23,033 bases of DNA. Origin: a virus. The stretch covers positions 1 to 23,033 of IMG/VR virus record IMGVR_UViG_3300006752_000248; one strand, 5' to 3'. The notes below the pieces were generated by a model. That model saw only the letters and a list, made by a program, of their open reading frames with translations, ran no database searches and was not told where the DNA came from. This document shows, one piece after another, positions 4,182 through 19,216 of the stretch (positions within the stretch are counted from its first letter, which is position 1; every line of letters begins with the position of its first letter). The position numbers and the translations under genes were made by a program.

Positions 4182-7100
4182 TTAGATCTCGTTACCATCT
4201 TCATCGTATACTGTATTATCAAGCGTTGGCCTTCCACCCGCTACCGAGAACGTCATTAATCCTTGAGGTACGATCTTAATCTCGTCTCTTGTTGACGCGC
4301 TAAAGGGTAGCTGAGAGCTAGGTGTCTGTACCCCATAGTGGATAGCTCGCTCATTAATGTGCTCAGCTAGGTGCGGTGAGTCTGTACGCTCAGAGGGGCG
4401 GTTAACCTCAATAGATGCCTTAATGTGACAGCCTGCTACGGGAGGATTGATGCCCTCAGGTAAATCTTCTGCGAATGACTGCCCATGATTACCTGTATAC
4501 AGTACGAATACAATCTCATGATCTCCGGGCAATGTAAGCTCATTAGGAGTCACTACGCTGTCATTGAGGCTCTTTGAAGACAAGCCAATAGGCGCGTTTA
4601 GCCGAAGTGAGGATGCCTGCTCATGCATACGGCCAAGACTGCTCAGTAGCTCATATTCAACACCACTGTTCTGCGCAGAGTTAGCGACAGGAGAATGAAC
4701 CTCAGTAATACCCGCGCCAAGATCCCAAAGCGTATCAAAAGGATCAGAAGCAAACGTGTCTCCCGTATGGCTAGGGATGAGTGAACGCTCAAATGCGGCC
4801 TCTGAGGTACTGCCCGATTGAACGAGCGCGTTTTCACCTTCAAGCCAATACTGCTTAACATCCGAAGTATTATTAGTGGGCTTAAGTTGAAGATCCTCAG
4901 AGTTGCGGAATTGAACACCATCTTGGTTCGCTCCACCCGATAGGTTTGTTGACACCATTCTCTTTAGAGGCTTCATCCACTTAAAGTTAGGATGCAAACG
5001 GCTACCGCCTAAGTTGCTTATGTCACCTGTATCAATCATTGATTCCAAATGAATATAAGGCTTATTAGATGGGGAAGTAAGGTTAGTGCGAGGTAGTCTC
5101 TTAAGCTGATTAGTCTCAGCATCAACAGCTAAGAACATCTCAGTGAGGCTCTTAGTCGGTGATGAAAGACCTCCATAATTTAATGCTGCCCCGCCCAAAG
5201 CGATTGCACCTCCCGGCCTATTATGCAGAACGCGGATAGAGCTGTTTAACATCAGCTTAGTCTGCATCCCCAATTTGCTCCACATAGATGATGTATACAA
5301 CAAGCCCTGATTAAGCGTAGTGCCTTCAGAAGTCATTAATACACCCTTAGCTTGACGCTCATAGCCACACATATCAAAGATATCACGGAAAGTGAGATTG
5401 TCTTCTCGTAGCGAGTCATTATCACTATCATGGACAAGAGTACCGTCTTGTCGCGTTGCACCAACACCCAAACAAAGTGGGTCTAAGAACACAGAACGAC
5501 GAGTAACGAATACATTCGTACCCATGTCACCCATCATTAAGGTATCCACATCTTTATCTGGACCTTTACCGCTTACGATGCCCCTAGAGTCCGCAAAGTC
5601 AATGTGCCATGAAGGGCGATCATCAGCGTCATCCAAGTAGCTGTACGGATGAATGCTGTTATGTCCATAAGTACGGCTATACGTCTTAACATAGAGGTTA
5701 ATCCAAGCAAGCGTGTCTGTCTTTAGCCCAGAGCGGAGAGCCGCACCCGAGAATGGCTCCGTATGCGGTAATGAATCAGGAATAATCTCAGAGAAGTCGT
5801 TGTCTGTAACCTCCGTTCGTCCATTGAATCCTGTGAGACGTGAAGAATCTAAAGCCTGTAATACACGCAAGGTGTTCGCATCATATGGAAGACCTCGAAC
5901 ATCATAATACGCGTCTCTCGGATCATTATTATCCATGACCTCAAGTCTCGGGTTGCTAATCAGCGGGTTATACCCCGCGTTGTATGCATACTGATTGTCT
6001 TCATTTCTTGATGAAGCATCATAGCCCGATATCGGAGTAAATGAAGCCGTTCCCTGATGCGCCGCGTTTGTGTTTACATTGTCTATGACCGACATGGACG
6101 CGGGTAAATAAACCGGACGAGTCGCTTGATGGAACACCGTTCTAACCAAACGATCTTTAATCGTATTCGTCGCTGTTCCGCTATTTGCAACAAGAAGCGT
6201 GTTGTTAAAAGAATCGCCATATTGATGCGTTACGCTTGGGAGATACGGGAACCAATTAGCCCAGCTATTATATTGCTGTGCATTGAGTTGTCCCGTGTAG
6301 TTATTCTCCTCATAATCAAGACCATCCGCAAATCCAACGGAGCTTGGTAAATTAAGCCCGCCAAATCCAAGAACGCCCGTACTATGAGAGAAGTACGGGA
6401 TGTAGTTGAAGCTGTTACCTTCAGGATCAGCGTCACTGTTGTCGCCAAGTCTAAAGCCTTCTCCATGAGGATTAATTGACCCTAGTGCCGCGTTATAGTC
6501 AAAAGCAGTCTTATAGAAGCTCTCAACAGCAGGAACAAATCCATCTTCACTGTCCGAACCAGGGAACAAGCCCGTTATTCCGTTAAATAGGCGAAGCGCA
6601 TTAATCTGTTCAGCTGAATTATCTGTATCAGCGTCCGTCTCATTAGAGCTACTCTCGTTAAAGCCCGCAACATTACGCCAATTGCTGATTCCTAGCTGGT
6701 TAGACATAATTCCACGAGCTCTCGCAGTAAGGCGATCGCTTATAGGTACGATCCCCGTGTAAACCATGCTCTCGCGTGACCACTCAGGGTATGCCTGATA
6801 TCTAACTCTTGTGTCATCTGAGTTTTGAGTGTTGCCTTCTGTGCTGTTCAGCCAAAATCCATCCTCACCGCCCGGTGCTTGTAGCGCGTCCATGTTAGGG
6901 TGCCACCAATGAATATAAGGCTGTGCATTGCTAGGGATACAGACTGCTACAGGATCAACAGACCCAATTTGCACAGCATTAGTCTCAAGGAGATCCCTAA
7001 AGAAATCAGTAAGCGTAACGCTAGATCCCGAAGAGTCCTTAAGCTCACCATCTTGGTTTACCTGTGTTTGGATCAGGTCAGTAAGCGCCTTAAGTGATAG

Positions 7101-10100
7101 CGCAGACACTACAGGTAAGGCATTCGGGTTGTTGCTTTGATCACGTGCTCCAGCCAATGCGGGATACATTCGCTTTAAAGCCGTAGGTGATAGCTTAGAA
7201 AGCCACTCACTAATGATCGGAGTCGTAGTAGCAAGACCGCTTGTCGCGGGATTATTAGGTGCTTGCAAATCTGCGATTGCCTCATAAAGCGTATCAGAGC
7301 GCAGAGCGCCTGCATCGATGAGACCATCTAAGTCCTTAGCGAGCGTACTGCTGTTAAACAAGAACGAGCTTAGGATATCCTTAAGATGATTCGCCACGTC
7401 AAGATAGAAGTCTTTAAGAGCTGTCTCTGTTAGTGCGGGATTTGTTAAAACCTCCGCTGATAGCGGTCGATTTCGTCTTGAAGCCCAACGATCAAATAAA
7501 ATCTTCCATTCAGGATTCGCGACCCACTTCGAAAGTATACTATATTGTCCGTTATTCGCCTCAATTCCAATAGCTTGGAAGTAAGAAGCTACGGGGAATG
7601 GGTTATTGCCCGTCGGTACAACCGCAGTTATGTCAACCTCACTGCCCGCAATGACTCCAAAGATGATATCAGTTCCATTAGCCCCTTGCCCGTTATTAGG
7701 TACGCTAAACAGGTTTATTGCTAAAGCTCTAAAGGCGATCGCGATCTCAGAGTTGTAATAACGTGAATGCGCCTCTAATAGCGTTAATGTCTGATCATTC
7801 CTTATCAGGCGAGGCTCATTCTTAGAAAGAGCAAAACTCTCAAGATCAAGCGCAGATCTCGGGATGACGTTACCCTCATCGCTGTCAATGAATAGGAAAT
7901 CTGAATCATCAGTCTCAGATGCATATGACGCTGTTAATGAGTATAGATGGTCGGGGATACCGCGTCCGTTAGAAATATCGAGGAGCGTCGCAATCGCTTC
8001 GCTTAAGTCCATCGAACCCTCTAAGATCGAGTGCTGATGCTTAGGCATTGTCATCCAATGTGTGAAGCTCAAAGGCTCTACGCGAACGAACAAGTTTAAG
8101 CTATCAACAAGCAGATTAGATGGTACACCGTTTGCGTCTAACTCGCCGGGATAGAAATCTCCAACGTGGTAACGAAGTCGAAGTGCTGTTGCGCGGTTAG
8201 TGTCCAGAGACGTAGAAGGCATATACAGAGGGCGATCCTCTGATGGACTGCTTGATGCGGATGATGCCTGCGTCATAAGTCGAGTAAGCGATAGCTCTCT
8301 TCGACCCCAAGCACCCTTTAGAGGCTCATTCATCTTAGCAGACGAAGTCTCAATATCATCGTAGTAGCGAGCCTGATGCACATCATCTAAGTTAGATGAA
8401 GATCCTTGATCTAGGCGAGTAATCGAAGTTGAACCACTAATGTTACTCAAGAATGGTAGTAAAGTGCTGTTAGTCGCGGTATGCCCTAATGCTTTTGAGA
8501 GCGCCTGAAATCCATCGTTTCCAATAGTTGGAGCATAAGAGGTACCCGCAGCTGAGCTAATACCCATCGTACCCTTGACCTCTACATCAGCGCGCTGTGA
8601 TCTAATCGCAGATCGAGAGCTTGCGAGTACAGTAGCATGGCCAAACTTTAGTGCGTCAAAAGCCGTGTAAAGGCTCTGATCAAAATAAGCAGGCCCACCC
8701 TGTGGCGTCACTGTTGAATTACTTAGAAGGTCTAAGGTGTCGGTAAAAGAATCTAAACCCTGAAACCATAAAGGTTGATCTATCGTGAACAAGTCACCCT
8801 CTGCATGAGCGGAGGTCTTAATAGCCAATTTTCTTAGATTAAAGGAGTCCTTGAAAGCCTTAGCCTGCGCGATTCCTTCGTGCCAAAGTCGTTGCTCGTT
8901 AGAGCTCTTAGAACGGCTCCACCCTAGAGATTCGTCATTGTAATCAACAGTGTTTGATCCGTTTATCTTCTCGCGTACAAAGTACGACGCATCTTGTTGA
9001 GACAGCTGAGCCATTCCTCCAAGATTAGCGCCCTTGTTGTGATCAGCCCATTGTGAGTTTGCCGAATACAGTGGGTCTTCAAAGTCAATAGTACCGAATG
9101 TACGGACATCACCGTAATTCGTAGCGTCGATAAAGTTGTTGCTTACAGAGGATGCGTCTGCTTGACGATAAGTTGTACCAGAGCTTGCATTACCTATCGC
9201 GTGATCGTCACCTAATAATAGGTTAGCGCATGGCGTTATCCTAAATAGAGTGCCTGATTGAGTGGCGGGGCTGTTGCCGGTAGTGCGAAGCTGAGTAATG
9301 CCTGCCTGCCCAATTACGGCTAGAAGCGCATTGTCGTAAGAGTCTAAGCGTCCATCCAAAGAGTTGAACAACACCTGTCGTAGAGTCTCGCCTTCAGCAA
9401 GTGATAAACGGTCTAAGACAAGTGGCGCGTATACAGATCGGAGTTGATCCATAGCCCGATAAGGTGTAGCGCCATAAAATGCTTGGCGCGCGCGAACAAT
9501 CTCAGAGGTAGCGTCGCTTGCCTTAAGGAAGATACGAGGAGGTGCGACGTATACTGAAGGCTGTACGCTAAATGTGTCCGAGCCTGAGATATGAGTATAG
9601 TAGCCGTTTGCGTTCGGAGAGACTCTTGGTCTGTTCCAAAAACGTGGAACTGTTGCATCTTGAGTATCAATAACGAGCATATCAAATTGATGCGCGAGAT
9701 CTAAGTTAGGCCAAAATCTCGGTGATAGTGAGTCGCTGTTTACAGCGGGAGCTGCACCATTAGGGAAGTTAGCGAGATCAGAAGCAAGAGCGCCATTGAT
9801 TAAGAACTCTTGATGTAGACGCTTTGATGGCGAGCTACATACGAGGAGAATCAGCTGATCACTAAGGTAACGATCATAGGCAACAGCACTACCATTAGTA
9901 GTGTGAAGCCCTAGTATTGCCTTGAGAATATCGAGGTTTAGTAAACCATCATCGCCCATCTTACGTAAAACAGGTGATGATACCTTCTGTACGCCAAGTA
10001 TAGATTGTGGACGATTAGAGAGCGCATTATCTTCGCTAATGTCGTGCTCTGTTATAGAGCCCGCTGAAAGCAGTAAGGTCTGCTGTGTGAAGCCGTTTGC

Positions 10101-11183
10101 GCCAATGTTCCACTCCAAGTCACGATTAGAGCCAATAGCGAACTCTTGTGTCGTAATTAGATTCTCTAAAAGAGAACGGGCATCGTCTGCAGTTTCGTGC
10201 TCACCTGAATCTGATAGCGCAGAAGCAAGCTCATAGATAGCATCTCCATAGACGTTAGCGATGCGTACAGTCCAGCGAAGCTGAGTACGGTGCGTCGTCT
10301 CAGTGCCGATGTTGGCGTTCTGAATGTCACCATCTTCGTCGGAAGAGATATCCTCTTGCCAAGTGTTTACGAACACTAATTGCAGTGGGTTATCCTCTTT
10401 GCCGATAATCGTCTCAAAGTTGCTCGCTTGATCCCATGCTGAGCGGTTGCTTGTAAGCATATTCGGAGGGATTATAATATACTCGTCACCTATAGAGACC
10501 GGTGCGGGTAAAAGATTTTCCATCTTAATTATGTCGCCTGAAGCGACAATAAGTGGATAAGCATCGCCTACATTGGCTTGATTTAGCGCGTTAGTAAACA
10601 CTACTCGACATGCGCCTGTTTTAACATTAAGGCTCTTGAGATTAGGCGCTACTCCAAATGAACAAGATGTAGTCGTCTCCATAAGGAGGTGATGCGATTC
10701 AAAGTTCTTAGATAAGTCTTTAAACGTCCTGTTAGGGTCAGTAGCATCTACCTCGCTCACTTTTCCCTTAAAGACGTAGTTCCCGTAATCAATCGTCTCA
10801 GCGCCTCCAACCTGTTTTAACAGGAAGGAGTCATAGGCAATCGTAAAGTCACCGTCGTTAGCCGTAAATAGACTCTCAGTATCTATAACGCCCGCTCTTG
10901 TAGGTAAGCGCCCAATAGTCACCGCGAAGTTGTCATTATTCATCGTGTTCTGAGGATCTACATTTGCAGGCATTACTGCCCATTCAAATGGTGATGTCTC
11001 AATACCGCTAAAGCGTTGGTCTAATCGCGCCTTAGATAACAGTTCTTCAATAGTCATGTCTTGAGCGTCATTAAGCTCAGTGTCTAAAACAGGCTTACCC
11101 TGTTGAAAGCGTACACTCTTATATAAGTCACGCCGATCAAAAGTGCCTGAAATGGATACGTTTGGAGTTGATGTATCAGCCAT
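4182..11183 (-). CDS. Giant 2333-residue baseplate/tail-fibre-type structural protein
   Basis: One intact frame of 2333 residues, roughly 250 kDa, with no frameshift seen. Residues 18-43 contain RDLYKSVRFQQGKPVLDTEL followed by NDAQDM. The V-R/M-x-QQG-x-x-x-LD-x-x-x-N pattern is known from N-termini of large phage and tailocin baseplate-associated proteins (DUF6519/DUF4815-like), where it probably anchors the protein. The rest alternates acidic, Ser/Asn/Asp/Gly-rich strands with a few helical parts (for example around residues 1260-1400). Few Cys are present, and no catalytic motif, signal peptide, collagen repeat or clear tandem repeat was found. The C-terminus (PQGLMTFSVAGGRPTLD) is beta-rich. 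GAGG is nine bases before ATG. Position after W-J-I suggests a baseplate skirt or receptor-binding fibre. It could also be a secreted effector-like cargo, which is less likely. Confidence 0.85.
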   Translation of the reverse strand: MADTSTPNVSISGTFDRRDLYKSVRFQQGKPVLDTELNDAQDMTIEELLSKARLDQRFSGIETSPFEWAVMPANVDPQNTMNNDNFAVTIGRLPTRAGVIDTESLFTANDGDFTIAYDSFLLKQVGGAETIDYGNYVFKGKVSEVDATDPNRTFKDLSKNFESHHLLMETTTSCSFGVAPNLKSLNVKTGACRVVFTNALNQANVGDAYPLIVASGDIIKMENLLPAPVSIGDEYIIIPPNMLTSNRSAWDQASNFETIIGKEDNPLQLVFVNTWQEDISSDEDGDIQNANIGTETTHRTQLRWTVRIANVYGDAIYELASALSDSGEHETADDARSLLENLITTQEFAIGSNRDLEWNIGANGFTQQTLLLSAGSITEHDISEDNALSNRPQSILGVQKVSSPVLRKMGDDGLLNLDILKAILGLHTTNGSAVAYDRYLSDQLILLVCSSPSKRLHQEFLINGALASDLANFPNGAAPAVNSDSLSPRFWPNLDLAHQFDMLVIDTQDATVPRFWNRPRVSPNANGYYTHISGSDTFSVQPSVYVAPPRIFLKASDATSEIVRARQAFYGATPYRAMDQLRSVYAPLVLDRLSLAEGETLRQVLFNSLDGRLDSYDNALLAVIGQAGITQLRTTGNSPATQSGTLFRITPCANLLLGDDHAIGNASSGTTYRQADASSVSNNFIDATNYGDVRTFGTIDFEDPLYSANSQWADHNKGANLGGMAQLSQQDASYFVREKINGSNTVDYNDESLGWSRSKSSNEQRLWHEGIAQAKAFKDSFNLRKLAIKTSAHAEGDLFTIDQPLWFQGLDSFTDTLDLLSNSTVTPQGGPAYFDQSLYTAFDALKFGHATVLASSRSAIRSQRADVEVKGTMGISSAAGTSYAPTIGNDGFQALSKALGHTATNSTLLPFLSNISGSTSITRLDQGSSSNLDDVHQARYYDDIETSSAKMNEPLKGAWGRRELSLTRLMTQASSASSSPSEDRPLYMPSTSLDTNRATALRLRYHVGDFYPGELDANGVPSNLLVDSLNLFVRVEPLSFTHWMTMPKHQHSILEGSMDLSEAIATLLDISNGRGIPDHLYSLTASYASETDDSDFLFIDSDEGNVIPRSALDLESFALSKNEPRLIRNDQTLTLLEAHSRYYNSEIAIAFRALAINLFSVPNNGQGANGTDIIFGVIAGSEVDITAVVPTGNNPFPVASYFQAIGIEANNGQYSILSKWVANPEWKILFDRWASRRNRPLSAEVLTNPALTETALKDFYLDVANHLKDILSSFLFNSSTLAKDLDGLIDAGALRSDTLYEAIADLQAPNNPATSGLATTTPIISEWLSKLSPTALKRMYPALAGARDQSNNPNALPVVSALSLKALTDLIQTQVNQDGELKDSSGSSVTLTDFFRDLLETNAVQIGSVDPVAVCIPSNAQPYIHWWHPNMDALQAPGGEDGFWLNSTEGNTQNSDDTRVRYQAYPEWSRESMVYTGIVPISDRLTARARGIMSNQLGISNWRNVAGFNESSSNETDADTDNSAEQINALRLFNGITGLFPGSDSEDGFVPAVESFYKTAFDYNAALGSINPHGEGFRLGDNSDADPEGNSFNYIPYFSHSTGVLGFGGLNLPSSVGFADGLDYEENNYTGQLNAQQYNSWANWFPYLPSVTHQYGDSFNNTLLVANSGTATNTIKDRLVRTVFHQATRPVYLPASMSVIDNVNTNAAHQGTASFTPISGYDASSRNEDNQYAYNAGYNPLISNPRLEVMDNNDPRDAYYDVRGLPYDANTLRVLQALDSSRLTGFNGRTEVTDNDFSEIIPDSLPHTEPFSGAALRSGLKTDTLAWINLYVKTYSRTYGHNSIHPYSYLDDADDRPSWHIDFADSRGIVSGKGPDKDVDTLMMGDMGTNVFVTRRSVFLDPLCLGVGATRQDGTLVHDSDNDSLREDNLTFRDIFDMCGYERQAKGVLMTSEGTTLNQGLLYTSSMWSKLGMQTKLMLNSSIRVLHNRPGGAIALGGAALNYGGLSSPTKSLTEMFLAVDAETNQLKRLPRTNLTSPSNKPYIHLESMIDTGDISNLGGSRLHPNFKWMKPLKRMVSTNLSGGANQDGVQFRNSEDLQLKPTNNTSDVKQYWLEGENALVQSGSTSEAAFERSLIPSHTGDTFASDPFDTLWDLGAGITEVHSPVANSAQNSGVEYELLSSLGRMHEQASSLRLNAPIGLSSKSLNDSVVTPNELTLPGDHEIVFVLYTGNHGQSFAEDLPEGINPPVAGCHIKASIEVNRPSERTDSPHLAEHINERAIHYGVQTPSSQLPFSASTRDEIKIVPQGLMTFSVAGGRPTLDNTVYDEDGNEI

Positions 11184-15514: not shown

Positions 15515-16797
15515 GTGTCACCCTTTACTCTCCAGACATAGTTAATGTCTGTTGAAGATATAGCCGCATTAGTTTGTGCCAAAGCCCGCGCGTCGCTGTT
15601 CTCTTTGATGCGATCTCCCCACTCTAAGTCCTCTGCAAGATCGTTTATTTTAAAAGCCGCCCTTAAAACGTCAAGCGCGCGACCCGCCCCTAGAACGAAG
15701 TGGAGCGCGAAGTACGCAGTCTTTTCCAAAGGCACGTCGGGATTCAGGGGATATGTACTTAGAGATGATGCCTTAGAAATAGTAGAGTAAACAGACTCTA
15801 TATCACCTGTGCCGTATACCAAAAGGTTTTGAATCGGAGATTCGGCGATCTCTATAAACCCCTGTAGAGCTGTAATCGCGAGCTTAAGAGATCTATCTAT
15901 TACCTCTATGCGTTTTTTAACGAGAGCGATTTGCCTAGACATGGCGTCAGTGACCGATATTGCGACCTTTAACGCATTAACGGCAACAATGAGGCCATTA
16001 ATTGTCTTCTTAAACGGCTCTATGTCATTAAGTGATAGCGATGACCAATTAGGCGCAGTCGCGGAACCCGCAGTAAACATGGAGTTAGGGTAGCTCTCTA
16101 TAGCATTATATGTGTCGATGTTATTGAAGAGAAACTTTTGGCTGTCCGGCATTAAGGCGAGTAGGACGCTAAACGCCTCAGTGAGTTTGCTTATTGAAGG
16201 GGCAGTTGCAAAGAAGCCTATAAACAAGTGTACGTCACTTACAGAACGGCTAATCGGTCTAAAGCGGTCTGCTTGGTCTTGATAAGAGTTTGAGATCTCA
16301 ATCAGAGAATCGGGTAGACTCTTTGAGGTCTTAATCGTCATGTGCCTGCTTGTCAGGGCGGCTACTCTTGTGGACGCGAAGAGATCAATAAAGCTCTCTA
16401 GTGCTAAGATAGCGATTGTAAACGCTTCTCTCAGGATGTTTGCGCCCTCTATAGCGAGAGTGAGCGCGAGGTCTATAGCAGATTCTAATATGGTTACGAA
16501 CTGCTTAGCTACATCAAGCGCGGTAGATGTAGAATCAATGATATCGCTAACGCCTTCAAGACCCTCGCCTAAATCTTGGAGGCCAAATACGTTCCAATCC
16601 GCTTGCACAGATCCATAGAGATCGGGGTTTGATTTGATGTCTTCCCAAAGCTGATCGGGAGTGCGCACATCTTTATCTAAGCCTTGACGATCTAAATCAT
16701 CAGTTTGTGCGCCAACGCTAAATCGCTTAGCGCGAATATTCGCGAGACGTATTTTTTCCTCAGCGCTTAGAGTGTTGTAATCTCTTTGTTGCATCAT
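15511..16797 (-). CDS. Helical, Ala/Leu-rich protein of the baseplate cluster, unknown function
   Basis: A 428-residue protein with no recognised family. The N-terminus is charged (MMQQRDYNTLSAEEKIRLAN), and residues about 85-140 are amphipathic to hydrophobic helices (AKQFVTILESAIDLALTL, LREAFTIAILALESFIDLFA). More long helices occupy the rest, including AMSRQIALVKKRIEVIDRSL around 285-305. It looks like an elongated helical bundle or coiled coil rather than a beta-rich fibre. Two neighbouring ATGs (16797, 16794) are possible starts, with a purine-rich AAGAAGAG just upstream. The gene begins inside the previous one and ends in an ATGA overlap with the gp25-like gene. The hydrophobic helices lack a clear membrane topology. 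A baseplate-internal or wedge-scaffold role is possible. Confidence 0.75.
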   Translation of the reverse strand: MMQQRDYNTLSAEEKIRLANIRAKRFSVGAQTDDLDRQGLDKDVRTPDQLWEDIKSNPDLYGSVQADWNVFGLQDLGEGLEGVSDIIDSTSTALDVAKQFVTILESAIDLALTLAIEGANILREAFTIAILALESFIDLFASTRVAALTSRHMTIKTSKSLPDSLIEISNSYQDQADRFRPISRSVSDVHLFIGFFATAPSISKLTEAFSVLLALMPDSQKFLFNNIDTYNAIESYPNSMFTAGSATAPNWSSLSLNDIEPFKKTINGLIVAVNALKVAISVTDAMSRQIALVKKRIEVIDRSLKLAITALQGFIEIAESPIQNLLVYGTGDIESVYSTISKASSLSTYPLNPDVPLEKTAYFALHFVLGAGRALDVLRAAFKINDLAEDLEWGDRIKENSDARALAQTNAAISSTDINYVWRVKGDT

Positions 16798-17179
16798 GCT
16801 CTTCTTTCTTTAACAAAGCTAACAACGCATTAACCTTTGCTATTTCCTTGACAGAAACAACAAAACCCGCAGCCGAAACGACGCGAGTTAGAGAATCAAC
16901 GACCTCTTTTGATTTTAATACAGCCAAAGCTTGGTCATCGCCTTTAAGCGCATCATTAAGACCCGCTAGGGTTGCAGTTACAGGCTCGAAGTATTCAGCA
17001 ACAGTGAGCCCTTTTGAAGCCCACGGAGATTCGCTGTTACATATTGAAGGGTAGTTTTCGGAAACTTTTGGGGGGCTGTCTTCAGGAGATACCACTCCTC
17101 CCCAGCCTTCAGAGGTTAGGCTTGACCTTGCGGCTAAAGCGTCGAGGTCTTTGATTCGCTCTGTTCGTGTATCAGTCAT
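16760..17179 (-). CDS. Unknown helical protein preceding the 428-residue gene
   Basis: A 139-residue protein that I do not recognise. Residues 1-25 are helical and charged (MTDTRTERIKDLDALAARSS), a Pro/Ser/Gly-rich stretch follows, and residues about 55-139 form long helices with Ala, Leu and Val repeats (EVVDSLTRVVSAAGFVVSVK, then EIAKVNALLALLKKEE). The ATG at 17179 has AAGGA seven bases upstream. The last 38 bases overlap the start of the next gene in another frame, which suggests coupled translation and perhaps a complex of the two products. It lies between the inserted small-gene cassette and the wedge genes. A structural or assembly role in the baseplate is inferred from location. Confidence 0.7.
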   Translation of the reverse strand: MTDTRTERIKDLDALAARSSLTSEGWGGVVSPEDSPPKVSENYPSICNSESPWASKGLTVAEYFEPVTATLAGLNDALKGDDQALAVLKSKEVVDSLTRVVSAAGFVVSVKEIAKVNALLALLKKEEHDATKRLQHSKR

Positions 17180-17191
17180 GTAGTGTCCTTT

Positions 17192-17213
17192 CAGTAGCAG
17201 TCTTAGGCTACCG
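17192..17213 (-). other. Hairpin next to ribosome binding site of the 139-residue gene
   Basis: On the minus strand CGGTAGC and GCTACTG can pair (7 base pairs, one G-U) around the 8-base loop CTAAGACT. It ends two bases before the AGGA that serves the ATG at 17179. No U-run follows, so it is not a standard intrinsic terminator. It may shape translation of the gene after the inserted cassette, or be chance. Confidence 0.3.
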
Positions 17214-17236
17214 TAAAGTCACCACATATTCAACAA

Positions 17237-17410
17237 TCACCAAAGGTAAAGTGCGTCATTCACATCATCTAATGTTGGTTTCTCGCTAAATAGCGTCTGA
17301 GCGATCAGTTCGTCATCCTCATTGTAAACCTTAGCGACCCACTCATCTTTTACATAAGTTATTGAAACCCGGATCTCTCCGTCGTCTGTCTCTACAATAT
17401 AGCTTTTCAT
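17237..17410 (-). CDS. Small acidic protein, unknown function
   Basis: A 57-residue protein starting MKSYIVETDDGEIRVSITYV. The start at 17410 is set by AAGGAG ending six bases before the ATG. An open frame continues upstream to 17629, but that extension runs through the previous gene and has no such site. The N-terminal half looks like a small beta-sheet (alternating residues, YIVETDDGEIRVSITYV, DEWVAKVYN). The C-terminus is acidic and helical (PTLDDVNDALYLW). Its acidity contrasts with the basic protein two genes before. An anti-host or antitoxin-like role is imaginable, but nothing in the sequence proves it. Confidence 0.75.
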   Translation of the reverse strand: MKSYIVETDDGEIRVSITYVKDEWVAKVYNEDDELIAQTLFSEKPTLDDVNDALYLW

Positions 17411-17420
17411 TGGTATCTCC

Positions 17421-17951
17421 TTAGAAGGGTAGCGCGAAGTTTTCGTGAGCCCAGCACTCACTATAAATATCAACAGTGGCGTCCGTATTCTTGCGAATAG
17501 ATTCCATATGCTTGGCGAGTAATGGTCGAAGTTCCGTAGAGGTCGAAGCAACAAGCGAGCTAAGCGCCATCTTTGCGAACCCTTCGTGCACGTGCGGAGT
17601 TGTAAACATCGGATAAACCCAAGGATCACTCATCTCAATGCGCTCTAACTCTGTGAGCTTGCGAAACTCTGCATCACCATATTCGGTGTGGAAAATTATT
17701 GATAATAATATGGTGCGGTTGACCTCATAACCGCCACCCTCCCAAAGAATCTTGTAAGTTTCCATCTGTAGCTCAGGAATACCTAAGACTCTTACGAATG
17801 GCGCAAGAGCATACCGCTCAGCGACAGTAAATGAGTCTTGCAGTAGCTTGTTAATAATAATGTTATGTGTCTCGCTCAAGTCATATTTAAATGAATGAGG
17901 CGTGACGTGTAGAGGAAGAATCCTCTGCTCAAGGTCGTATTGCTGTGTCAT
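17421..17951 (-). CDS. Unknown 176-residue protein of the inserted cassette
   Basis: Function not recognised. The frame is open further upstream to an ATG at 18002, but that would overlap the basic-protein gene by 41 bases. The ATG at 17951 is preferred because AAGGA lies seven bases before it, giving a protein beginning MTQQYDLEQRILPLHV. It appears mostly helical and soluble, with three Trp, scattered His (HVTPHSF, TTPHVHEG, CWAHENF) and a cluster WEGGGYEVNR. No transmembrane segment or catalytic motif is clear. It lies between the basic 65-residue gene and the acidic 57-residue gene with gaps of ten bases on each side, so the three are surely co-transcribed. Composition and lack of beta repeats set it apart from the baseplate genes around it. 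Confidence 0.75.
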   Translation of the reverse strand: MTQQYDLEQRILPLHVTPHSFKYDLSETHNIIINKLLQDSFTVAERYALAPFVRVLGIPELQMETYKILWEGGGYEVNRTILLSIIFHTEYGDAEFRKLTELERIEMSDPWVYPMFTTPHVHEGFAKMALSSLVASTSTELRPLLAKHMESIRKNTDATVDIYSECWAHENFALPF

Positions 17952-17961
17952 TGCTGTGTCC

Positions 17962-18159
17962 TTATGTGAAATCCCATTTAAGGGTCTTTGATTCAAAATC
18001 AACGGTGCTCAGGCGAAGTTGGGCCTTATTATACGCGCGATTGCTCTTCTTTTTATTGTTCCTCTCGCAATGCACAAGATTGCCGTAAGTGCTCCGCAAG
18101 TTAAGACGAGAGCCTGAGCGCGTGCGCGACCCTCGTGAATCAAATCGGTTGCTTGCCAT
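17962..18159 (-). CDS. Small very basic protein, unknown function
   Basis: A 65-residue protein that I do not recognise. The first 45 residues hold many Arg, Lys and Ser (RFDSRGSRTRSGSRLNLRS, then ERNNKKKSNRAYNK), the last 20 are more ordinary (LSTVDFESKTLKWDFT). There is no signal peptide or membrane segment. The start is supported by GGAG nine bases before the ATG. It is the first gene after the sigma70-type promoter and is followed after ten bases by another small gene. The charge would suit binding to nucleic acid or an acidic partner, but that is inference from composition only. Confidence 0.7.
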   Translation of the reverse strand: MASNRFDSRGSRTRSGSRLNLRSTYGNLVHCERNNKKKSNRAYNKAQLRLSTVDFESKTLKWDFT

Positions 18160-18190
18160 ATGTTGATCTCCGTTGAGATTGGGTGGTGTA

Positions 18191-18229
18191 TTTGATCATT
18201 TACGAGTTGTTTTAGGTGTTTAGATCAAA
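18191..18229 (-). promoter_or_regulatory. Inverted repeat in leader downstream of the promoter
   Basis: TTTGATC (18191-18197) and GATCAAA (18223-18229) are a perfect 7-base inverted repeat with a 25-base spacing, lying between the -10 box and the first gene. It could be an operator pair or a weak hairpin. It includes GATC sites. The role is speculative. Confidence 0.25.
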
Positions 18230-18239
18230 CGATGAATAT

Positions 18240-18268
18240 ATTATAGCAAGGTCTATAAATCTTAGCAA
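18240..18268 (-). promoter_or_regulatory. Sigma70-type promoter for the three-gene insert
   Basis: On the minus strand: TTGCTA (-35, four of six matches to consensus) at 18268-18263, a 17-base spacer, and a perfect TATAAT (-10) at 18245-18240. A-rich sequence lies upstream of the -35. The leader to the ATG at 18159 is about 75-80 bases. Transcription would enter the small genes at 18159-17237. It is the best host-type promoter noticed in the window. Confidence 0.65.
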
Positions 18269-18277
18269 ATTTATTTT

Positions 18278-19216
18278 TTAACCTGTTATCTCCTCCAGAA
18301 CAAGCGAAATCCCTATAGAGTCAATCTCAGTAGTACAAGACGCTTGTATAGAGATAAGATGACTCTTAATCAGTATAATATCCTTGCTAGGGGGGAACAC
18401 AGATTTGTAAAAGTCCGTAACGGAAAAACTGAAAGACGACGTGTCATCTACTCCTGTATCTCCATAATTAATCGCTACTGTGATATCAGACTCCTTGTCG
18501 TCTTTAGCCAATGCCCAAACACCTATAGATTTGACTCTACAATGCCTGTGCGCGATTTGATATCGAGCGCCTCCCGCAAAGTCTAAGAGGAATGATAGTT
18601 GACCAAAATCAGGCTCGTAAGAGGCGCTCCACGTGTAGACCTGTCGGTCAATAGCCTCAGTATTAAAGTAAGGCCTGTTCTGTTGTGTAAACAGATGGTC
18701 GTCGCCTAGATAAAGAGAATTGGCGCTAAGGAATAGATTGCGAATCTTCTGATCAGCGCTACCTATGTCATATTGCGCGTTTAAAGCCGGTAGGAAGTGG
18801 CCATCACCATTGATATTAAAACGCTGAGAGGCGTTAGTGGTTAAAGAGATCTCATTACCACTTGCATCAACTCTCGTAGCGTTTGATGCATTTCTAATTA
18901 AAGAAGGCGTAGGTATCTCAGGATCTTGATGGGTATGATCCGTTAGCTGTGATGGATCAGTAAATCTTATGTTCCCATTCTGAACCGTAAGAATATCCCC
19001 ATTAGAGGCTAAAGAGAGATCAATATCTACACCCTGTTGTATGTTATTGACGATTGTCCCTTCATCAGAGCTTGTATTGGCAAATTCTTCGTGAATTGCC
19101 TGCGCGTAATCCTCCGCATGCCGTCTTATAACCTTATATGCAGGGCTAGTATTCGGTATTTCTTGTCCTACACTCTGCATATCTGCTTCTTGAAGTTTGT
19201 CCGCTAATGTTGGCAT
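18278..19216 (-). CDS. Probable tail-fibre or spike-associated structural protein
   Basis: A 312-residue protein of mixed build. Residues 1-50 are polar and probably helical, possibly an attachment segment. Residues about 52-100 carry short strands and a His-rich phrase, LTDHTHQDPE. Residues 132-172 contain FNINGDGHFLPALNAQYDIG, then SADQKIRNLFLSANSLYLGD. This F-x-P-x-x-x-x-x-Y-D-I/L-GS ... R-D/N-L-F/Y-L-S-x-N-S-L-Y-L-G-D pattern is widespread in tail fibres of marine and other phages. The C-terminal 120 residues look like a beta-sandwich (SFSFSVTDFYKSVFP, ISIQASCTTEIDSIGISLVL). It follows the spike gene after 27 bases and is the last gene before a 118-base gap with a promoter. The motif supports a fibre-type fold, but whether it is a fibre, a plug or a chaperone-like partner cannot be seen. 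Confidence 0.6.
   Translation of the reverse strand: MPTLADKLQEADMQSVGQEIPNTSPAYKVIRRHAEDYAQAIHEEFANTSSDEGTIVNNIQQGVDIDLSLASNGDILTVQNGNIRFTDPSQLTDHTHQDPEIPTPSLIRNASNATRVDASGNEISLTTNASQRFNINGDGHFLPALNAQYDIGSADQKIRNLFLSANSLYLGDDHLFTQQNRPYFNTEAIDRQVYTWSASYEPDFGQLSFLLDFAGGARYQIAHRHCRVKSIGVWALAKDDKESDITVAINYGDTGVDDTSSFSFSVTDFYKSVFPPSKDIILIKSHLISIQASCTTEIDSIGISLVLEEITG

Follow-up and report, generated by a model that had tools for sequence, protein, structure and literature searches.

Do the three small genes lying between the spike and wedge genes in the baseplate operon of this virus record form a moron, or do they belong to the phage's own expression plan? A transcription terminator of its own is a classical moron trait, and a base composition differing from that of the neighbours is a frequent sign. 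By definition, comparing the operons of related phages shows a moron, whether a single gene or a group, as an apparent insertion, usually with a promoter of its own and independent expression (PMC2629481). These traits were followed in the window (the whole stretch of DNA analysed, 23,033 nucleotides, positions 1–23,033 of the 23-kb virus record IMGVR_UViG_3300006752_000248, which is a fragment of its own genome) and in its relatives. The initial annotation had described a moron-like three-gene cassette; its observation is confirmed, and its moron interpretation is partly supported. The best reading of the sequences is that the segment, here called the slot, would be moron-like and wired into the phage's own regulation, rather than a foreign three-gene cassette.

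Relatives were sought by scanning 2.9 million viral contigs, which gave two related lineages. The nearer is L002 (IMGVR_UViG_3300012920_000051, 54.8 kb), with a baseplate-J protein 72% identical to that of the window. In the more distant, L013/L014, the spike is 49% and J 50–54% identical to the window; its two members give equal match figures and were counted as one lineage, so that the slot comparison covers three lineages, a small set. Remoter spike or J matches (L003–L006, L009–L011 and L015–L019) were too diverged to define the slot, and the 197-aa tail protein as an extra query brought no new lineage. Single-protein and alignment scans of the viral contigs with the 176-aa protein matched L002 only, the same protein had no match in genome contigs, and the 65-, 176-, 57- and 428-aa proteins had none among phage records. 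The L002 contig encodes a contractile tail sheath, tube, terminase, portal and major head protein, and further PhoH, ThyX, a B12-dependent-type ribonucleotide reductase (RNR), a processivity factor and an amidase. The group is therefore one of contractile-tailed phages, and the amidase gene points to a bacterial host with peptidoglycan. A search for tRNA genes found none. Almost one third of the window (4182–11183) is taken up by the gene of a 2333-aa protein, whose N-terminus has a similar counterpart in L014.

Slot contents in three lineages

The ORFs claimed for the slot, a basic one of 65 aa, one of 176 aa and an acidic one of 57 aa, are all present on the - strand, tightly spaced at 10 bases (Table 1). 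Outside the slot the operon is collinear in all three lineages, and L013/L014 keep the baseplate set; the slot itself holds the 65-, 176- and 57-aa genes in the window, 170- and 57-aa genes in L002 (order 312-like, 170 aa, 57 aa, 129 aa, 428 aa, W, J, I) and one unrelated gene of 126–128 aa in L013/L014. Between the window and L002, identity is 42% for the 176- and 170-aa proteins, 46% for the 57-aa pair and 54% for W. The 65-aa gene lacks a counterpart in L002, L013 and L014, and the 176- and 57-aa genes are absent from L013/L014, where a 124-aa gene (L013) takes the position of the window's 139-aa gene. The slot protein of L013/L014 belongs to phrog_2859; like the 65-aa product it is small, basic and encoded in the same slot, but it is unrelated in sequence to the 65-, 176- and 57-aa proteins, and in other phages its relatives are encoded close to portal and capsid genes, sometimes within larger proteins. 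A tiny ATGA-coupled ORF (MKHGYKKKKKKGSGK, L013 7004–7051) lies 3' of this gene.

Slot content thus varies within a collinear operon, as expected of a moron, and this part of the cassette claim stands; yet the 176- and 57-aa genes are shared with L002, from which the 65-aa gene alone is missing, and the three genes are therefore not one unit of insertion. The comparison of relatives that had been proposed for exactly this segment gave a corresponding result: the slot differs between lineages and is not conserved in all, but the segment does not come and go as a single piece. The statement that it splits spike from wedge genes holds but leaves something out: in all three lineages the stretch from spike (V) to wedge (W) also contains the 312-, 139- and 428-aa genes or their positional counterparts.

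Table 1. Features of the slot region in the window and copies of the promoter motif in L002
Feature	Position	Strand	Remark
312-aa protein, upstream operon flank	18278..19216	-	51% identical in L002; N-terminus matches L013 299-aa protein
Promoter block, conserved	18231..18278	-	83% identical to L002 7104-7151
Core word TTTGCTAAG	18269-18261	-	overlaps -35
-35 TTGCTA	18268-18263	-	17-nt spacer to -10
-10 TATAAT	18245-18240	-	extended -10 TG in front
5' leader	18160..18230	-	Shine-Dalgarno (SD) within small stem-loop AUCUCAACGGAGAU, 18179-18166
65-aa ORF, basic, pI 11.0	17962..18159	-	window only; weak codon support
176-aa protein, pI 5.3	17421..17951	-	all-helical model; conserved in L002
57-aa acidic protein, pI 4.05	17237..17410	-	beta-beta-beta-beta-alpha; conserved in L002
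Hairpin	17177..17228	-	pairs SD (AAAGGAC) and AUG of 139-aa gene; L002 counterpart 7926-7978
139-aa protein, first gene past slot	16760..17179	-	51% identity to L002 129-aa protein
L002 motif	2501	+	heads unit: 129-aa gene, then ThyX and RNR
L002 motif	5643	+	heads unit starting with 100-aa gene
L002 motif	6522	+	heads unit starting with 304-aa gene
L002 motif	9139	+	heads unit starting with 178-aa gene
L002 motif	21673	+	heads gene with weak ribbon-helix-helix match, then terminase and portal
L002 motif	27188	+	heads 74-aa gene, then 242-aa coiled protein and major head protein
L002 motif	43988	+	heads slot

Codon statistics support the 176- and 57-aa ORFs as coding (0 of 2000 shuffles each) and the 65-aa ORF more weakly (p 0.018). 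The GC contents of the slot genes (0.475, 0.452 and 0.414, against 0.424–0.485 in neighbours) are in keeping with the phage's own, so the deviating base composition of many morons is not seen. Pfam, PHROGs, PADLOC and NCBIfam returned nothing significant for the three proteins. The AF2 model of the 176-aa protein is all helical and of moderate confidence (pLDDT 70.9, pTM 0.66); that of the 57-aa protein, built from two sequences, has four strands and a helix at high confidence (pLDDT 93). Foldseek gave no match with E < 0.2 for either model against the PDB, or for the 176-aa model against BFVD. The top VIA-align matches, an eIF2B epsilon fragment for the 176-aa model (Z 6.5) and MmoD for the 57-aa model (Z 5.8), fall in the range of common arrangements and were set aside. 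The 57-aa protein occurs in L002 without a 65-aa partner. Given a slot that varies among stable assembly genes, the leading guess is that its products would be accessory or host-directed.

The gap promoter and its phage-wide motif

Upstream of the slot lies a gap of 118 bases (18160–18277), as annotated the longest between genes of the window, with 31% GC against 41–49% in genes. It contains the expected TTGCTA-17-TATAAT sequence (18268–18240, - strand), which has the -35 and -10 hexamers and a spacer within the 16–18 of sigma70-type promoters, its activity being predicted. On a sigma70 weight matrix this is the top site of the whole window (13.6, next 11.2), and by consensus count (10/12) it is level with two other window sites. 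Such promoter-like sites number 19 in the window against 21.6 in shuffles, i.e. chance level, and the promoter evidence from the window sequence alone is therefore modest. Conservation across relatives makes the predicted promoter a solid call: window and L002 share 83% identity over the opening 48 bases of the gap, and the gap carries a promoter in all three lineages. The leader and its SD (TCTCAACGGAGATnAAC) are also kept in L002, where they directly precede the 170-aa gene, while in the window they precede the 65-aa gene; from this position, the two genomes differ by one small gene, either placed behind the leader and ahead of the 176-aa gene or lost from that point.

Sites resembling AAATAAATTTGCTAAG-N15-TATTATATA occur seven times in the L002 contig, every one on the gene strand and all seven outside listed genes, although only about 11% of the contig is intergenic; with the window's copy they make an alignment of eight. 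The word TTTGCTAAG is found six times on the + strand of this contig (0.23 expected) and never on the - strand. Five of the six are followed exactly 15 bases on by TATNAT and the remaining one by TAATAT; the seventh site carries two mismatches. A strict 19-base pattern, AAATTTGCTAAG-N15-TATNATAT, has four matches among the contigs listed from the 2.9 million viral ones, which may leave out the window's own record, all four in the L002 contig. The motif count rests on L002, and further copies are expected elsewhere in the genome of which the window is a 23-kb fragment. In the L013/L014 gap, TTTGCTAAG is followed by TTGACA-17-TATATT, the top promoter match there (11/12). The distance from TTTGCTAAG to the -10 is 10 bases longer in L013 (6515–6559) than in L002, about one helical turn, with the consensus TTGACA between; this makes a -35 role of the word uncertain there, and suggests that the word may bind a protein in addition to acting as a -35.

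By sequence, then, the predicted slot promoter is one copy of a phage-wide element and no special moron promoter. It is present and conserved, as a moron's own promoter would be, yet the motif also heads structural and metabolic units. By itself the motif does not mark expression apart from the late genes, which the initial annotation had thought possible: copies head the capsid unit as well as nucleotide-metabolism units, and the motif therefore says nothing on the timing of slot expression. Stem-loops with a loop of 4 and the Shine-Dalgarno as 3' arm were seen 3' of several promoter copies (L002 5752, 9244 and 44093; window 18179–18166). As a mark of these promoters they were unconvincing, being present at 3 of the 7 unit heads compared with 6 of 32 genes elsewhere.

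A hairpin over the start of the 139-aa gene

The second-longest intergenic gap of the window, 57 bases, is on the 3' side of the slot and harbours a hairpin that sequesters the start of the 139-aa gene. Folded in isolation, without ribosomes, the window RNA has an MFE of -23 kcal/mol (z -5.5) and its L002 counterpart one of -21.5 (z -4.6), with 0 of 200 shuffles as good in either case. Sliding-window scans place the hairpin in the top 0.3% of - strand windows in the window and in the top 1% in L002, and the start it covers is the least accessible of 20 genes tested in the former and of 27 in the latter. The inner stem is kept in both genomes; the outer stem is rebuilt from other sequence with the register shifted by one, so that covariation, across these two sequences, consists of the outer stem and two G-C/G-U switches. 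No hairpin of this kind was found in a folding scan of L013, and it is therefore not essential to the family. The stop codon of the 57-aa gene lies 8 bases before the hairpin, which makes it plausible that ribosomes finishing that gene would open it.

Rival readings and a model of expression

The slot could be a true moron, with no part in morphogenesis: a host-directed cassette (for example anti-defence) whose expression would be early and separate from that of the structural genes. Its lineage-dependent contents and small orphan proteins would fit, as would a promoter of its own, whose type is also found ahead of ThyX-RNR, a unit that is usually early or middle; the hairpin would hold the wedge genes off during slot translation. 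The 57-aa model is weakly like inhibitory proteins (MmoD, and an AcrIF at Z 5.1), both in the common-arrangement range. Against this, the nearer relative shares both the 176- and the 57-aa gene, the capsid unit has the same motif at its head, PADLOC gave no significant match and the base composition is the phage's own; nor does the - strand between 17180 and 18268 contain an intrinsic-terminator match, so that no classical moron terminator of the intrinsic kind is recognisable. We regard a true moron as unlikely, if a serious contender.

Alternatively, the 176- and 57-aa proteins might serve this phage group as parts of the baseplate or as chaperones in its assembly, with another protein in the distant lineage and the 65-aa ORF a chance or decaying one. 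Their order and position are kept in L002, at an identity slightly under that of the 139-aa protein and W, and the ORFs of the window are tightly spaced at 10 bases. L013/L014 lack both genes despite keeping the remaining baseplate set, and no structural family was matched; this reading seems to us quite improbable. That the gap is a mere spacer with chance promoter-like and hairpin-like sequence would agree with the shuffle-level number of promoter-like sites in the window, but it has to contend with seven motif copies in L002, one kept at the slot gap, and with a hairpin maintained despite altered outer-stem sequence; it is very hard to credit.

We consider it reasonably probable, instead, that the wedge genes form a second, promoter-headed transcription unit with an exchangeable slot in first position, followed by a translational gate. 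The phage-wide promoter (TTTGCTAAG at -35, 17-nt spacer, TATTAT/TATAAT at -10) would fire in the gap 3' of the 312-aa gene, giving a transcript that first carries the small slot genes; read-through into the 139-aa, 428-aa, W, J and I genes would then top up wedge mRNA. With its SD and start hidden in the hairpin, the 139-aa gene would need, for its translation, either ribosomes coming in from the 57-aa gene or processing of the RNA, and slot and wedge genes could thereby be set to different levels. Tolerance of exchange in the position next to the promoter may be why slot genes come and go. Motif recurrence and placement, slot variability and the hairpin in two genomes are observed; what the model would add is that the promoter is active, that read-through and gating take place and that the slot products are accessory. 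A moron-like slot can, on this model, belong to the phage's own transcription and translation plan, as opposed to having come in from outside complete with promoter and terminator. The well-supported promoter motif may also serve to predict transcription units and other accessory slots from sequence in this uncultivated contractile-tailed group. A further step, which we think doubtful, would see an expression module made for gene exchange, in which repeated promoter, tolerant first slot and hairpin shield essential baseplate genes; new accessory genes could then be tried without disturbing the wedge genes.

The arrangement resembles the 'ant moron' of P22-like phages, which lies between gene 16 and the tailspike gene, shows flux above that of neighbouring assembly genes and can affect downstream gene expression (PMC2629481). 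Both place variable small genes at one fixed point of a conserved late structural operon, with flux exceeding that of the assembly genes and a possible influence downstream. Here, in contrast, the promoter is one member of a phage-wide family, the slot genes point in the operon direction, no regulator genes are recognised among them, and the slot, without a recognisable terminator, ends at a start-hiding hairpin, likely a translational gate. In T4, genes e, soc, 49 and I-TevI have their SD or AUG sequestered in an RNA helix, and late promoters immediately upstream of gene e yield transcripts lacking the 5' arm (PMC3014915). The 139-aa gene likewise has its SD and start codon in a strong hairpin on a longer transcript; no promoter like that of gene e was identified at it. 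The end of an ORF 8 bases ahead of the hairpin suggests that, unlike in gene e, control would be by coupling to translation.
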